Source: Chromatiales bacterium (GTDB lineage: Bacteria > Pseudomonadota > Gammaproteobacteria > RBG-16-57-12). From it: a stretch of DNA of 32,207 nucleotides. Numbering within the stretch: position 1 is the stretch's first letter; each line of letters opens with the position of its first letter. Positions 7 to 6,695 of the stretch are shown piece by piece. The translations under genes and the position numbers were made by a program. The stretch spans positions 1 to 32,207 of the forward strand of contig JALSJH010000010.1 in the NCBI GenBank assembly GCA_026989455.1, written 5' to 3'. A model generated the notes under the pieces. The model was not told where the DNA came from, did no database searches, and saw nothing but the letters and a program-made list of their open reading frames with translations.

Positions 7-1269
7 ATGCCAACATTTCATGTGATAGACCCGCTACTTGTTGACCAGGGTGGTCATTATTTGAGCCAGCACGTTGCGCTCTGGAACTTGTGTCAGCCCA
101 GAGGCTACGAGATGGCCAGCTATTGCCATGTCGATTTTGATGTGGCTTTGATGCCCGCTGGGGTGAAGGTGGTTTCGACTTTTGGTCGCGCCGAACTGCC
201 TGTGCTTAATGGGCACTACTGCACGGTGCTGGGTGCCAGTAATATGCAGTGTTACCAGTCGTTGCAGGCGATTGATTCATCACAATTTAAAGATGACGAT
301 ATTGTTTTTCTCACCTCAATGACGGCTGAGCGAGTGGTGGCCTATGGGCAGTGGTTGCGGGAGCTGGTTGGCAAAACAAAATGTCGGTTTGGCCTTTATG
401 CCCATATCAGCTCTGAGGTGGATGATACCCTTGCCCGTGATATTCGCCGCAGCGGCCTGCCGCTGAGTGATGACTCTTTTGCGGCGCTGGATGAGGTGGT
501 GGTGCCTAATGAGGTGAAGCGCTCTATGTACCGTTATCTGTTTGCCAGCATTCCAGATGACCAGCTTGAGCGGTTTCGGGTTTTCTACGAGGAGCCATTT
601 CCCAATCGGAATTTTATCGATTTGGCACAAAAACCGGGGTTGCGCTTTATCTACTTGCACTCGCTCTATCCGGGAGGGGAGTGCGATGACCGAGCACCTT
701 CTAATCAGGTCAATATCGCTTGCTTGGGTTCGGGTGGTCTGGGTGGTGATGGGGTGAGTAAAGGGCAGCATCTACTGGCGGAAATTGTGGGTAGTGTGAG
801 TGAACGGCACCCTGGCATTACCTTTACGCTACAGCTGGGTAACCGCTTTGCCACGGGGAATATGACCGATATTCAGCGTCAGCAACGTACACTGCTGGCA
901 CAATGCCGTAACCTCTCTATTCATGAAGGGCTGTTGAGTTGTGAGGCGTATTGTTCGCTGTTGGTGCACTCTGATTTGATGTTGCTCCCCTATGGGCCGC
1001 GTTATCGCCATATCATGTCGGGCATATTTGATGATGCTCTCTATCTGGGAAAGGTCTGCATTATTCCTCAGCAGAGTAAAATGGCGCTGTGGATGGATCG
1101 GCATAATCTGGATTTTCCGATGTTCTCCGAGTGGGATGCATCATCGATAATCGCTGCAATTGATGATGCGCTGACCCGCTTGCCGTTTTATCAACGGCAG
1201 GCGCAGGCGGCTCAGAAAATTCGTAGAGAGAGCTGGGCCAGAAATAATCCGATTGATGTCTTTTCGTAA
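7..1269 (+). CDS. glycosyltransferase-like protein (GT-B type, putative)
   Basis: A 420-residue cytoplasmic protein without signal peptide or membrane segment. The C-terminal half looks like a GT-B donor-binding domain: VNIACLGSGGLGGDGVSKG near residue 234 starts a Rossmann-like strand-loop, followed by a region on strand residues (ITFTLQLGN) and a late LLPYGPRYRHIMSGIFDDAL segment that resembles the acidic/Gly nucleotide-sugar pocket of GT4-like enzymes. The N-terminal half (VDQGGHYLSQH) also looks like a glycosyltransferase acceptor domain with a glycine-rich start. A sugar transferase role in surface polysaccharide is inferred; donor and acceptor cannot be read. It starts at an ATG six bases into the window, so a longer upstream start cannot be excluded. 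It converges on the VanZ-like gene with only two bases between the stop codons. Confidence 0.6.
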   Translation: MPTFHVIDPLLVDQGGHYLSQHVALWNLCQPRGYEMASYCHVDFDVALMPAGVKVVSTFGRAELPVLNGHYCTVLGASNMQCYQSLQAIDSSQFKDDDIVFLTSMTAERVVAYGQWLRELVGKTKCRFGLYAHISSEVDDTLARDIRRSGLPLSDDSFAALDEVVVPNEVKRSMYRYLFASIPDDQLERFRVFYEEPFPNRNFIDLAQKPGLRFIYLHSLYPGGECDDRAPSNQVNIACLGSGGLGGDGVSKGQHLLAEIVGSVSERHPGITFTLQLGNRFATGNMTDIQRQQRTLLAQCRNLSIHEGLLSCEAYCSLLVHSDLMLLPYGPRYRHIMSGIFDDALYLGKVCIIPQQSKMALWMDRHNLDFPMFSEWDASSIIAAIDDALTRLPFYQRQAQAAQKIRRESWARNNPIDVFS

Positions 1270-1271
1270 CC

Positions 1272-2231
1272 CTATTGTAACGATTCAACGTATTCATCTT
1301 TTGAATTCAACAAAATAAGGTTGTCCAGTCGAATGGTTTTTAAAGGCGAGCCACTCATGAAATAGAAAGTCACCCCTGAAATGCGTGCCATATCCATGGT
1401 GCGTTTAGTGGGTGCCTGTTTGACTTGCTGCAAGCTGACCTGAAATCGATTCCAGCCGGGTTTGAGTTGCATCTTTGTGTTGTATCGGTCGTTGTAGTGA
1501 TTGCCCCTTTTATTGTGTAGCCTGTCGTTGATGCGAAAATAGAGAGGCCATATTTGATCACTGCTATTGTACATTTCAAACTGAAAAAAGGCGTAGCCAC
1601 GCCAGTCACTTACCCTCGGGATGAGAGTTAACCCCGGATATTTTTCCGATGAATCGATATGAGCTAACAGCTGCTTTGATTTGCGCTGGATGATCTCCAA
1701 TGGAGATTTGCTCTCCCACCTTGACTGTTCAAAGGGTGTCTCAAAGTCGGCAATAATGGGGTGTTTATGGTGCGCAATGGCAGTGTCGGCAGCAATCGAT
1801 AGCAGTGGGGTGAGCGACCACAGCAGTAGCAGCGTGAGCAGCGATATCAGCCCTAACTTGATACGGCTACTCAAGAGTAGTCTGAGCTGGAAGATATAGA
1901 GCGCCAGCAGAGAACCTAATAAATTATTGAGTAGATCATCGATAGAAGCTTGTCGGCCTACTGTTAGTTGAACCATTTCAATTACCACACTGAGTAGCAG
2001 CGTGATCAGCAGTGCGGCTGTTAGGCGGGATGTTAATGCTGGAAAATATCGTTGAAGATAGGGTAATAGTGAGGCTGTTAGCAGGAAAAAGTACCCGATA
2101 TGCCCCAGGTTCCAGATCGCCATTTGGTAATCATTAAGCTGGCCGCTGATGTTAGGAGTGAATAGCAGTATGGTTGCGATGAGCAATAAAACCTTTGCCC
2201 AATGATGTTGCACCATTTCATTAGTGATCAT
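1272..2231 (-). CDS. VanZ-like membrane protein with C-terminal carbohydrate-binding-like domain
   Basis: A 319-residue protein. Residues about 10-140 hold four or so hydrophobic segments, including the VanZ-type signature region VIEMVQLTVGRQASIDDLLNN, in which the E-x-x-Q and R-x-x-S-x-x-D-x-x-x-N residues of VanZ-like proteins can be seen. A further hydrophobic segment (ISLLTLLLLWSLTPLLS) leads into a soluble C-terminal part of about 160 residues beginning IIADFETPFEQSRW. Its beta-rich pattern, with WRGYAFFQFEMYN and LDNLILL at the end, resembles a galactose-binding or CBM-like jelly roll facing the periplasm. The function of VanZ-like proteins outside vancomycin resistance clusters is poorly known. 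The glycosyltransferase neighbour makes an envelope role plausible. No convincing Shine-Dalgarno sequence precedes the ATG. Confidence 0.65.
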   Translation of the reverse strand: MITNEMVQHHWAKVLLLIATILLFTPNISGQLNDYQMAIWNLGHIGYFFLLTASLLPYLQRYFPALTSRLTAALLITLLLSVVIEMVQLTVGRQASIDDLLNNLLGSLLALYIFQLRLLLSSRIKLGLISLLTLLLLWSLTPLLSIAADTAIAHHKHPIIADFETPFEQSRWESKSPLEIIQRKSKQLLAHIDSSEKYPGLTLIPRVSDWRGYAFFQFEMYNSSDQIWPLYFRINDRLHNKRGNHYNDRYNTKMQLKPGWNRFQVSLQQVKQAPTKRTMDMARISGVTFYFMSGSPLKTIRLDNLILLNSKDEYVESLQ

Positions 2232-2252
2232 GGCTGTTTTGCTTGGGTTTAA

Positions 2253-2410
2253 CCAATAATCCTAACCCCTCAGATAGATCTGAGTGCGCCTGATCCCCAT
2301 GCTCTCGCGTGGGGATGCATACGGCACTATTATTTTGTATGGCATGGGTTTCCACGAAGAGCCGTGGAAACCAGGAAGTTAGATTGTGCATAATCGATGG
2401 ATTATACGGG
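2253..2410. repeat. degenerate inverted-repeat element with two strong hairpins
   Basis: Between the VanZ-like gene and catalase lies a repeat remnant. Its right end read on the minus strand (2410 down to 2375) matches the left end of the element at 21938 in 32 of 36 positions. A TTAA precedes the left side at 2249-2252, but the left terminus is too eroded to align well. Inside are two perfect or near-perfect hairpins: 2293-2302 with 2307-2316 (one G-T pair, TCTC loop) and 2347-2356 with 2363-2372 (10 bp perfect, 6-base loop). The second could also end transcription of the catalase gene, whose stop codon is two bases beyond the element. Confidence 0.6.
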
Positions 2411-2412
2411 TT

Positions 2413-3885
2413 TTAACTTATAGCAGCCATGGCGTTTTTTACGCGCTCAGCATAATCACTGTCTGCCGCTTTCATTTGATCCAGCATTTGTGCTTGTGCA
2501 TGACCACTGGCATGAATCAGCGCACCCGCAATATTGTTTGCTAGCTGGTTTTTCTGTTCATCGGACATCAAACGATAGAGTGCGCCCGCTTGGGTGAAAT
2601 TGTCATCTTGCTGGGTGTCGTGTGGTTTTACCCACGCTTCATTTTCAAGAGGAAGTGGCGGCTCTGCAACTTCTGGCTGTGGTGCGGGAGCACCCTCGGT
2701 TATCTGGTCATTGGGGTAGAAGTTGACACCACTGCCTTGGTTATTGTCACTGCCAAAGGCGGGTGGCATACCCGCCATTGCGCCATCACGCTGATAGTGG
2801 TGAAAAGGACAGCGAGGCGAGTTGACCGGCAGCTGGTTGGCATTAGCACCGATGCGGTAACGGTGGGCATCTGGGTAGGCCATTAAACGTGCTTGCAGCA
2901 TTTTGTCGGGCGATGCTCCCAAACCGGGTACTAAGTTTCCGGGGCTAAAGGCCGCCTGCTCGGTTTCAGCAAAATAGTTTTCGACATTGCGGTTTAACTC
3001 CATATGGCCAACCTCAATTAGAGGGAAATCAGCATGAGGCCAGATCTTGGTGAGGTCAAAGGGGTTGATCTGGTAGTTGTGAGCTTGAGCTTCGCTCATG
3101 ATCTGTACTTTCACTGCCCAGCTGGGAAAATTGCCTTTGTCGATTGACTCCACCAGATCTTGCTGTGCACCAAAAGATGGCATTTTTGCGGCCTCCTCAT
3201 TGGTGAGGTTTTTAATGCCCTGATTGGTTTTGAAATGCCACTTTACCCAAACACGTTCGCCTTGATCATTCCACATGCTTAATGTGTGTGAGCTAAAGCC
3301 GTGCATGTGGCGATAGGAGTAGGGAATGCCTCTGTCTGACATTAGGATGGTCATTTGATGTAGGGATTGTGGGGTGTTTCCCCAGAACTCAAACATCGCC
3401 CCCGGGTCGGGTAGATTGGTGACGGGGTTTTTCTTTTGAGAGTGAACAAAGTCAGGGAATTTGATCGGGTCGCGGAGAAAGAAAACCGGGGTATTGTTGC
3501 CGACCATGTCCCAGTTTCCCTCTTCGGTATAGAATTTAATGGCAAAACCACGGGGGTCGCGGGCGTAGTCGCTGGAGTCCTGGCCACCGCCCACAGTAGA
3601 AAAACGGATGAAAATGTCGGTTTTTTTTCCTTCATTCTGAAGGAATTTTGCGATGGTGTGTTTTGACATATCCTTATTTAGGGTGAAGGTGCCATAAGCT
3701 CCACAGCCCCGTGCATGAACCACTCGCTCGGGGATGCGCTCTCGATTGAAATGTGCCAATTTTTCAAACATTCGAAAATTATCAAAAGTGAGTGGGCCAT
3801 GCTCACCAGCACTAATGCTTGTTTGGTCATTCGAAATTGGCGCGCCGTTGACACTGGTTAACGGGCACTTAGATGTTTTTTTCAT
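2413..3885 (-). CDS. katA: catalase (clade-type monofunctional haem catalase)
   Basis: A 490-residue small-subunit catalase that breaks hydrogen peroxide into water and oxygen. The distal haem histidine is His57 in RVVHARGCGAYG, the distal asparagine is Asn130 in GNNTPVFFLRD, and the proximal haem-ligand tyrosine is Tyr336 in RLMAYPDAHRYRIG. RFSTVGGG at 93-100 and the FAIKFYTEEGNWD block are standard. Length and ends are complete, with no extra C-terminal flavodoxin-like domain as in large-subunit catalases. No signal peptide is visible, so it should be cytoplasmic. An AGGAG ribosome site lies just upstream of the ATG. It is a monocistronic gene facing a repeat element downstream. An OxyR-type control would be usual, but I see no site I could defend. 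Confidence 0.97.
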   Translation of the reverse strand: MKKTSKCPLTSVNGAPISNDQTSISAGEHGPLTFDNFRMFEKLAHFNRERIPERVVHARGCGAYGTFTLNKDMSKHTIAKFLQNEGKKTDIFIRFSTVGGGQDSSDYARDPRGFAIKFYTEEGNWDMVGNNTPVFFLRDPIKFPDFVHSQKKNPVTNLPDPGAMFEFWGNTPQSLHQMTILMSDRGIPYSYRHMHGFSSHTLSMWNDQGERVWVKWHFKTNQGIKNLTNEEAAKMPSFGAQQDLVESIDKGNFPSWAVKVQIMSEAQAHNYQINPFDLTKIWPHADFPLIEVGHMELNRNVENYFAETEQAAFSPGNLVPGLGASPDKMLQARLMAYPDAHRYRIGANANQLPVNSPRCPFHHYQRDGAMAGMPPAFGSDNNQGSGVNFYPNDQITEGAPAPQPEVAEPPLPLENEAWVKPHDTQQDDNFTQAGALYRLMSDEQKNQLANNIAGALIHASGHAQAQMLDQMKAADSDYAERVKNAMAAIS

Positions 3886-4126: not shown

Positions 4127-5074
4127 GTGGCGGCAGTTTCGACTATGAAATTCAAACTGATATACGAAAATCACGGTAATTTTGGCATTCATGTCGGCGA
4201 CTATTTTCTCTACCTGAAGTATGCGCTGGAGTCATTGGGGCATCGTGCTGATATTGAGTATGCGTTCTGCCCGGGAGAGGTGAATGTTGTGCTTGAGTGC
4301 TTTAATGATGCTTTCACGGAAAAAGTAGAGTCAAACTGGACTCCGGGTACGGCAATGATTGTGATCGCCACGGAGTTTTTGACTGGTAATACCTTTAATG
4401 ACATTTATCAGGATGTGGCTGAGAACCAGATGGCATCTGATCATAATCAGCGCCGCGATTTCTGGCGGATGCGCTATACCAATTTTATCCGTTTGATGCC
4501 CCGTTTCTCTGCCATCTGGCATGTCTCGGATGAGCAGCAGCTTGTTTATCAAAAAGCGTTCCCGGATAAAGTAGTCGACTATCTTCCCCACGGTTATTGT
4601 GAGTCGTTTGCGACCGTTAAGCACCTCAGTGATGGGGAGAAGGATATTGATGTGTTGTTTACCGGCGCGATGACCACCTACCGTCGCCAAGTGTTGGATT
4701 CGCTGGAGCAGGGCGGCTTGACGGTGGTATCAACCGTGCAATTCACCGCCCCCTTTCATCGTGAAGATTTAATCGCCCGCAGCAAGTTAACCCTAAATAT
4801 TAAACAGCACCCCGATTGGCAACACGAGTCGGTGACACGCCTCTATTATCACATTTGCAACGACTCGCTGTTAATGACCGACCAGTGTCGTTATACAACC
4901 GATCTTCACCACCATGTTATCGAGCGGGGTGGCGAGTGGCTGGATGCGGTGCAACAGGTGTTATCCCAGGGGGCATTCACCGAGCGGGCAGTGGCTATCC
5001 GGGAGCGTTATGCCGCCGCACGTCCGGTGGCGGCTCTGATGGATCCGCTGTTGCAGCGGGTTGAGTTATTGTGA
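4127..5074 (+). CDS. glycosyltransferase-like protein (CgeB-like GT-B)
   Basis: A 315-residue soluble protein. The C-terminal half carries a pattern typical of CgeB-like glycosyltransferases: YLPHGYCESF, then IDVLFTGAMTTYRRQVLDSL as the start of the second Rossmann domain, then LTLNIKQHPDWQHESVTRLYY, where the donor-site residues usually lie, and a short SLLMTDQC segment. Transfer of a sugar to a glycan or protein is inferred. The GTG at 4127 gives the longest form; ATG 4145 (MKFKLIYENHG) is an alternative with AGGTGG 14 bases ahead, and the choice is open. Its stop overlaps the next ATG as TGATG, which means translational coupling with the NeuB-like gene and a shared pathway. Confidence 0.6.
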   Translation: MAAVSTMKFKLIYENHGNFGIHVGDYFLYLKYALESLGHRADIEYAFCPGEVNVVLECFNDAFTEKVESNWTPGTAMIVIATEFLTGNTFNDIYQDVAENQMASDHNQRRDFWRMRYTNFIRLMPRFSAIWHVSDEQQLVYQKAFPDKVVDYLPHGYCESFATVKHLSDGEKDIDVLFTGAMTTYRRQVLDSLEQGGLTVVSTVQFTAPFHREDLIARSKLTLNIKQHPDWQHESVTRLYYHICNDSLLMTDQCRYTTDLHHHVIERGGEWLDAVQQVLSQGAFTERAVAIRERYAAARPVAALMDPLLQRVELL

Positions 5075-5928
5075 TGCCTTTTTTTATCGCCGAAGTCTCC
5101 AGTAACCACCATGGCGATCTGCAGCGCTGTTTTCAGTTTATCGATAAAGCGGCTGAAATGGGTTGTGATGCGGTCAAGTTCCAACTGTTTAAAATCGATC
5201 AACTCTTTTCTCCTGAGGTGCTTTCGGCCAGTGAGCAACACCGTCAGCGCCGACAGTGGGAGCTGCCGCTATCGTTTCTGCCTGCTCTGGCAGAGCGGTG
5301 CCAGCAACAGCGTATTCAGTTCTCCTGTACCCCTTTCTATCTGCAAGCCGTCGAGCAGCTTCAGCCCTATGTCGACTTTTATAAAATAGCCTCCTATGAA
5401 CTATTGTGGGATGAGCTGCTGCTGGCGTGTGCTGAAACCGGCAAGCCGGTGCTTCTCTCAACCGGCATGGCAACGTTGGATGAGGTGAAACATGCCGTGG
5501 ATCTGTTTGCCAATAAGCGCCAGCAGTTGAGCTTGCTGCACTGTGTTTCGGGTTACCCAGCACCCATTGAACAGTGTAATCTGGCGGCAATTCAGACCCT
5601 GCGTGATGCCTGTGGTTGCCCGGTGGGTTGGTCTGACCACAGCGTCTCGCCTGCGGTGCTACAACGCGCTGTGCACCGCTGGGGAGCGGAAATAGTAGAG
5701 TTCCACCTTGACCTGGATACACAAGGTGATGAGTATGCAGCGGGGCATTGCTGGCTGCCTGAGCAGATTGCGCCGCTCATCCGAGATATTCGCAGTGCTT
5801 TTACGGCAGACGGCTCGGCACGCAAAGAGCCGGCACCTATTGAACAGGCAGATCGTGATTGGCGAGCAGACCCACAAGATGGCTTGCGTCCACTGCGCCA
5901 CATTCGCAAAACCTTTGGAAGGGGGTAG
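5074..5928 (+). CDS. NeuB-family sialic/nonulosonic acid synthase lacking SAF domain
   Basis: A 284-residue protein of the N-acetylneuraminate synthase family, which condenses phosphoenolpyruvate with a hexosamine-type sugar. It keeps the TIM-barrel markers FIAEVSSNHHGD at the N-terminus, VKFQ, YKIASYELLW, STGMATLDEV, LHCVSGYPAP and GWSDHS. The two likely metal-binding histidines are His189 in SDHS and His211 in EFHLDLD. The second motif replaces the common EKHFTLD, and the last 60-70 residues that form the antifreeze-like SAF domain in standard NeuB (about 345 residues) are missing. The protein instead ends in an Arg-rich tail. Because SAF helps form the active site of the dimer, its substrate may differ from sialic acid. 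ATG 5074 overlaps the upstream stop; GTG 5071 is a second possible start. Confidence 0.8.
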   Translation: MPFFIAEVSSNHHGDLQRCFQFIDKAAEMGCDAVKFQLFKIDQLFSPEVLSASEQHRQRRQWELPLSFLPALAERCQQQRIQFSCTPFYLQAVEQLQPYVDFYKIASYELLWDELLLACAETGKPVLLSTGMATLDEVKHAVDLFANKRQQLSLLHCVSGYPAPIEQCNLAAIQTLRDACGCPVGWSDHSVSPAVLQRAVHRWGAEIVEFHLDLDTQGDEYAAGHCWLPEQIAPLIRDIRSAFTADGSARKEPAPIEQADRDWRADPQDGLRPLRHIRKTFGRG

Positions 5929-5930
5929 TT

Positions 5931-6695
5931 GTGTCAGATCTTGATAAAAATAATGAAAGATTGGTGATCGTGACTGGGGGAACTCGGGGTATCGGCTTGG
6001 CAATTGCCCGCCAACTGGCAAAACAGGGTTATGCGCTGGCACTGTGGTTCCATCAACGCAAACCGGCGGAGTCTCTGCTGGCAGAGCTGCTCTCTTGTGG
6101 TGCGGCAGCTCTCTATTGTGATCAGGTGAATGTGAGTGATCGCGCCTCGGTGGTTAAGGCGTTGGCAGCGCTTCAAGCCTCGCCTTACGCTGTTTATGGT
6201 CTAGTGAATAATGCCGGTATCTTGCAACAAAAGCCCTTTGAAAGCCTGACCGATCAAGAGTGGGATCATCTGCTCGATATTAACCTGAAAGGCAGCTTTA
6301 TTTGTGCGCAATTGGTTATGCCACTGATGCGTCATAAGGGTTTAGGGAGTATCGTCAATATCTCCTCCTCGGGTGGGCAGTTAGGGGGAACCTTGGCGGT
6401 TCACTACGCAGTCAGCAAAGCGGGTGTTATTGCGCTGAGCAAATCACTGGCGCGTGTCGGGGCGGATAACCAGATTCGAGTCAACTGTGTGGCACCCGGT
6501 TTAATTGAGACTGAGATGACCCAAGGGGAAATATCATCCTCGGCAGGTGTTGAAAAAGTGAATCAACTCATCCCGCTGCACCGGGTAGGCCAGCCCGATG
6601 AGGTTGCCGATGCGGTAAGTTTTTTGCTCTCGGATAACAGCCGCTATATCACCGGCCAGACCCTTAATGTGAATGGTGGACTCTATATGGGCTAG
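5931..6695 (+). CDS. short-chain dehydrogenase/reductase (FabG-like)
   Basis: A 254-residue classical SDR using NAD(P)H. TGGTRGIG at 15-22 is the cofactor loop, NNAG at 93-96 the structural motif, and the catalytic set is Asn118, Ser145-147, Tyr159 and Lys163 in YAVSK. VNCVAPGLIETEM follows as usual. The GTG start at 5931 is chosen because GGAAGGGGG lies at 5917-5925, two bases after the stop of the NeuB-like gene; a longer frame upstream runs through that gene and should be rejected. It resembles 3-oxoacyl-ACP reductase, but the cassette suggests reduction of a sugar or small carbonyl intermediate in glycan synthesis. The actual substrate is unknown. Confidence 0.85.
   Translation: MSDLDKNNERLVIVTGGTRGIGLAIARQLAKQGYALALWFHQRKPAESLLAELLSCGAAALYCDQVNVSDRASVVKALAALQASPYAVYGLVNNAGILQQKPFESLTDQEWDHLLDINLKGSFICAQLVMPLMRHKGLGSIVNISSSGGQLGGTLAVHYAVSKAGVIALSKSLARVGADNQIRVNCVAPGLIETEMTQGEISSSAGVEKVNQLIPLHRVGQPDEVADAVSFLLSDNSRYITGQTLNVNGGLYMG

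Follow-up and report, generated by a model that had tools for sequence, protein, structure and literature searches.

What do three touching genes, a NeuB-like synthase set between a putative glycosyltransferase and a reductase, contribute to a bacterium when the genes expected around such a synthase appear to be missing? The question arises from positions 4127-6695 of a 32,207-nucleotide stretch of DNA from a Chromatiales bacterium, hereafter the window. The first-pass annotation had read these genes as a compact cassette which, in the apparent absence of CMP-sugar synthetase and NeuC-type genes, might make an unusual acidic sugar or act on an intermediate from elsewhere. Three coupled open reading frames are indeed present there, all in the same direction on the + strand, touching one another and intact throughout. 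The features needed below are as follows, with the synthase and reductase named after proteins of Shewanella oneidensis.

7..1269, + strand: gene for a protein of unknown family, placed by nucleotide alignment to genomes G001 and G002; no Pfam match
4127..5074, + strand: GT-like gene, 315 aa; the conserved start is probably the ATG at 4145
5074..5928, + strand: SfmA-type NeuB-fold synthase lacking SAF, 284 aa; its ATG start overlaps the GT-like stop codon as TGATG
5698..5718, + strand: EFHLDLD motif, residues 209-215 of SfmA by alignment
5860..5892, + strand: invariant C-terminal tail WRADPxDGxRP, residues 263-273, at the site where SAF would follow in canonical NeuB
5931..6695 (probable), + strand: SfmC-like FabG-type SDR with a GTG start behind GGAAGGGGG; PF13561 match of 207 bits

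Pfam and NCBIfam profile matches agree with the earlier assignment of the reductase, which is a FabG-like SDR, 80% identical to its counterpart in the intact island found in the genus-mate MC-02. The TTG start at 5859 given for this gene by a mechanical ORF list is probably too far upstream. For the GT-like protein, neither Pfam nor NCBIfam profiles gave a match, and a profile search of the PDB was likewise negative. The gene proposed earlier is therefore present, but its label of glycosyltransferase depends on 29% identity, over 147 aa, with a PF13524 (Glyco_trans_1_2) protein of Mesorhizobium, a resemblance that makes the assignment plausible. The structure predicted for the GT-like protein, having a pLDDT of 36 and being derived from three near-identical sequences, was not used. 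Among 143 relatives, full-length orthologs occur only in the two genus-mates; the gene is a genus-specific accessory gene of the island, and the S. oneidensis sfm operon has no counterpart of it.

The synthase matches PF03102 with 214.5 bits, and no SAF domain is detected in it by Pfam even at E<=1, in agreement with its original description as a NeuB-like protein without the C-terminal SAF. It falls below the equivalog cut-offs of NCBIfam models TIGR03569 (194 versus 400 bits) and TIGR03586 (171 versus 340 bits). A scan of genome contigs yielded 74 loci, two encoding canonical NeuB proteins and 72, mostly from metagenome-assembled genomes, encoding SfmA relatives of about 285 aa. Because these relatives are 57-83% identical to the window protein, the observation is, as judged by sequence, not a chance one. 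They are distributed over the Pseudomonadota, Thermodesulfobacteriota, Myxococcota, Verrucomicrobiota, Acidobacteriota and Bacillota, and in a phylogenetic tree they form a single clade (support 100) apart from the SAF-containing NeuBs of relatives. Literature searches on SAF-less NeuB returned no relevant paper.

Fold and active site nevertheless link SfmA to the canonical NeuB/PseI/LegI enzymes (PF03102 plus SAF), with which it shares a TIM barrel and the metal- and PEP-binding residues. An AlphaFold (AF2) model is a barrel of high confidence (pLDDT 92.5) in which the tail is ordered, and its best matching PDB folds are NmNeuB, Leptospira 6ncs and C. jejuni PseI. Equivalents of NmNeuB residues E25, K53, Q55, K129, Y186, S213, H215, E234 and H236 are all conserved. 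The altered EFHLDLD motif noticed at the outset is present and proves to be a family-wide signature, in which E209 and H211 correspond to NmNeuB E234 and H236 and F210 stands for K/R, so that EFH replaces EKH; since the metal/PEP residues are retained, this change lies beside the catalytic set rather than within it. SfmA differs further in the loop following the motif (GxEYAAGHCWLP) and in the tail, both nearly invariant across the family, and in the absence of SAF with its active-site arginine. This arginine is needed for activity in NmNeuB (R314; PMC6795526), and the R322A substitution abolishes the function of Caulobacter NeuB (PMC7591256). When the C-termini of canonical NeuBs were used as a profile, SAF was detected in all three canonical NeuBs present, but not in any SfmA, in separate ORFs of the SfmA loci or in those contigs of this genome that were read; a NeuB from genome G130 served as positive control for SAF. 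A separate SAF protein together with a standard sialic acid pathway, the arrangement that would have spoken against the original reading, is thus not seen in these sequences, where the SAF domains found are all fused to canonical NeuBs. On these sequence patterns, the tail may substitute for SAF in SfmA.

Single searches of the same genome, which is 99.35% complete, locate most of what the window lacks. Side by side on contig C49 lie genes for a methyltransferase, an acetolactate-synthase-like (ALS-like) ThDP enzyme, an ATP-grasp protein ending in an L-amino-acid-ligase (LAL) domain, and a fusion protein joining a cytidylyltransferase (CTP_transf_3) to a PseG-like domain. The C-terminal half of this fusion covers nearly all of TIGR03590, although at 38.5 bits it scores below the cut-off of 153.6. 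Genes for PseB and PseC, scoring 523 bits against a cut-off of 408 and 447 bits against one of 424, respectively, are adjacent on contig C65, where no PseH is seen beside them. Contig C32 encodes a Maf protein with a PseD-like match, and contig C59 a flagellin with FliD and FliS. Apart from the window SfmA, the searches of this genome revealed no true NeuB-family gene; a second PF03102 match, on contig C77, was rejected as a DAHP synthase located beside aromatic-pathway genes. The view that CMP-sugar synthetase and NeuC-type genes are missing consequently holds for the 32-kb window but, given the C49 fusion, not for the genome. By contrast, the idea that the synthase acts on an intermediate made elsewhere gains support from PseB and PseC on C65, the PseG-like domain on C49 and the lack of a second NeuB gene. 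Also encoded beside PseB and PseC are a PDH-E1-like ThDP pair, a GHMP kinase, a sugar nucleotidyltransferase, an aminotransferase and two B12-binding radical SAM proteins.

The pathway genes are therefore split over contigs C10 (the window), C49 and C65, with Maf on C32. In MC-02, the four genes known here from C49 join the GT-like, SfmA and SDR genes in a single island, interrupted solely by a Fic-domain gene, and a homologue of the window gene at 7..1269 lies directly 5' of the GT-like gene. The second genus-mate, G002, carries the GT-SfmA-SDR block between a catalase gene and a DUF1631 gene exactly as in the window. Because the same junctions recur in G002, the break-up is real and common to this genome (G000) and G002, and an assembly artefact was rejected as the cause of the split. 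Three further observations concern these islands. The Fic-domain gene of MC-02 (locus L140, 12559-13692) lies between SfmA and SDR and is absent from that position in the window and G002; a VanZ-like gene and a catalase (window 1272-3885) separate the 7..1269 gene from the GT-like gene, as they do in G002; and one of the two B12-binding radical SAM proteins of C65 heads the intact island in MC-02.

A pathway of this kind has already been described. The sfmABCDE genes of S. oneidensis (SO_3261-SO_3265) form a flagellin modification operon downstream of a Maf gene; deletion of any of sfmA-D gave no spreading on soft agar and flagellin of about unmodified size, and deletion of sfmE had a milder effect (PMC3765264). 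The need for sfm in flagellin glycosylation was shown in 2013 for S. oneidensis only, a species without clear orthologs of PseF, PseG, PseH or PseI (PMC3765264). Its glycan consists of a nonulosonic acid of 274 Da, having two nitrogens and a single acetyl group, and a second moiety of 236, 250 or 264 Da (C9H16O7 to C11H20O7) (PMC3765264). The computed mono-acetyl mass of 274.116 agrees with an absent PseH step, and the 236/250/264 series can be read equally well as an octose residue carrying one to three methyls or as a heptonic acyl group with two to four. The proposal of an unusual acidic sugar is thereby supported in kind, in that the S. oneidensis relative makes a mono-N-acetyl nonulosonic acid with a 236-264 Da substituent (PMC3765264).

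All five enzyme classes encoded by sfmABCDE occur in the present genome: a NeuB-domain protein without SAF (about 290 aa in S. oneidensis) and a FabG-like SDR in the window, and an ALS-like ThDP enzyme, a methyltransferase and an ATP-grasp ligase on C49. Our comparison with Shewanella was made through the syntenic loci of S. marisflavi, S. aquimarina and S. fidelis in place of SO_3261 itself. Both S. oneidensis and this organism also hold PseB, PseC, Maf and flagellin. In contrast to S. oneidensis, the genes are split between contigs here, with the GT-like gene coupled to sfmA, and do not form a single operon beside a Maf gene, an arrangement that is variable in other loci as well. The Campylobacter Pse (PseB-C-H-G-I-F) and Caulobacter Flm/NeuB/FlmG (PMC7591256) pathways likewise have PseB, PseC, PseG- and PseF-type functions, a Maf or FlmG transferase and a flagellin target. 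Here, however, SfmA stands in place of PseI, the PseG- and PseF-like domains are fused, ThDP, SDR, methyltransferase and ligase genes are added, and no PseH is encoded next to PseB and PseC.

Across the 72 SfmA loci we typed ThDP enzymes by best hit. A split transketolase is encoded in 35 loci (and partially in 2 more), a DXS-like enzyme in 10 and an ALS-like enzyme in 10, never more than one type per locus; no ThDP enzyme was found in 15 of the 72, several of which are short contigs. The mutual exclusion and the swapping of types extend over loci L001-L074, as in L002 versus L070 and L021 versus L029. About 10 changes of type are required on the SfmA tree, including changes between Shewanella species with nearly identical SfmA proteins, such as the ALS- and DXS-type pair S. 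marisflavi and S. insulae, and such swaps suggest a conserved core sugar combined with an exchangeable module that builds the substituent. An association with flagella is also apparent. Of 50 genomes searched, 48 of them with SfmA, 49 contain Flagellin_N; in an unmatched control set of well-known genomes, it was found in 4 of 14. SfmA adjoins flgK/flgL/flgI in genomes G130 and G036, and FlmG-like TPR proteins in many alphaproteobacteria. In L026, L067 and other alphaproteobacterial loci, a Ser/Thr-rich repetitive protein of about 920 aa lies next to SfmA together with the FlmG-resembling protein, and is possibly a glycosylated flagellum-associated protein. In G130 (L138, 9107-11028), a canonical SAF-containing NeuB is encoded back to back with SfmA near flgJ-flgK-flgL, and this genome may make two ulosonic acids. 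Finally, plasmid pDCAR1 of Solidesulfovibrio carbinolicus (L142, 77063-95905) carries an Sfm-like set with a split transketolase and a separate pseF near three radical SAM genes, and its independent annotation lists pseF, fabG, transketolase, ATP-grasp and methyltransferase.

The feature is thus real, but it is a fragment of a larger and already described kind of flagellin-modification pathway rather than a self-standing cassette. On the observed gene content, homology, sole-synthase status, clade and residue conservation, we assign a probability of about three in four to the reading that the three genes are the SfmA-SfmC portion of a split Sfm-type flagellin nonulosonic-acid pathway, accompanied by a GT-like accessory gene specific to the genus, with the rest of the pathway encoded elsewhere in the genome. 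The individual reactions, their order and their target in this organism would then be as follows. PseB and PseC would convert UDP-GlcNAc to UDP-4-amino-4,6-dideoxy-AltNAc, from which the PseG-like half of the C49 fusion would remove UDP. SfmA, keeping the NeuB metal/PEP site and perhaps closing the sugar side of the active site with its short invariant tail instead of a domain-swapped SAF, would condense the free amino sugar with PEP to give a 7-amino, 5-N-acetyl pseudaminic-type acid. This product would be activated as the CMP-sugar by the cytidylyltransferase half of the fusion and transferred by Maf to flagellin. The ThDP enzyme, the SDR of the window, the methyltransferase and the LAL-type ATP-grasp ligase are predicted to build a second substituent, methylated and carbohydrate-like, and to attach it.

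The step in this scheme that invites most debate is the one catalyzed by SfmA, which might instead condense PEP with a different aldehyde acceptor, such as a sugar that the ThDP enzyme and SDR produce; the product of SfmA would then be the second moiety or another ulosonic acid rather than the pseudaminic-type core. Loss of the SAF arginine and of the K/R of EKH, together with the remodelled loop, suggests another acceptor, and a ThDP enzyme is nearly always encoded near SfmA. Moreover, the canonical NeuB directly beside SfmA in G130 implies that SfmA may not always be a pseudaminic-type synthase, and deletions of sfmA and sfmB behave alike in S. oneidensis (PMC3765264); because loss of sfmB-D removes all modification, and not just the substituent, SfmA could act on another acceptor. 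We nevertheless regard this alternative as unlikely, since no other NeuB was found in this genome to use the PseB/PseC product, and none other is reported in S. oneidensis, where a pseudaminic-type sugar is made all the same (PMC3765264).

The target might also be a surface polysaccharide or another protein, given that the Shewanella operon has none of the GT-like, sulfotransferase-like and other upstream genes of the island and that C65 carries further nucleotide-sugar genes. This we judge to be distinctly improbable in view of the flagellin, Maf, PseB and PseC genes of this organism, the flagellar neighbors of SfmA in its relatives and the near-universal presence of flagellin in the genomes searched. 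Scattering of the island over at least three contigs could even suggest that the three genes are a decaying remnant of its break-up, but with every frame intact, the G002 copies retained at 91-93% identity in the same place and other pathway steps present elsewhere in the genome, there is very little to recommend such a reading.

Returning to the split Sfm-type pathway, what looks new is the SAF-less clade with an invariant tail in six phyla and the swapping of its ThDP enzymes. We tentatively entertain the broader possibility, which we would not yet favor, that SfmA represents a distinct class of (non)ulosonic acid synthase that uses a different sugar, with the invariant tail replacing the domain-swapped SAF arginine, and serves a widespread family of flagellar glycans, whose lineage-specific branched or chain-extended substituents are built with one of three ThDP types. 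For S. oneidensis, our analysis suggests that SfmA and the cytidylyltransferase/PseG-like fusion can fill three gaps, namely the PseF- and PseG-like functions and the role of PseI. PseH itself may not be required, given that the second amine is left free to carry a different substituent. The 2013 study reported sfm from only one further species (PMC3765264); the set is now seen in at least six phyla, and because so large a clade manages without SAF, it offers a natural test of the role of this domain in sialic acid synthases.
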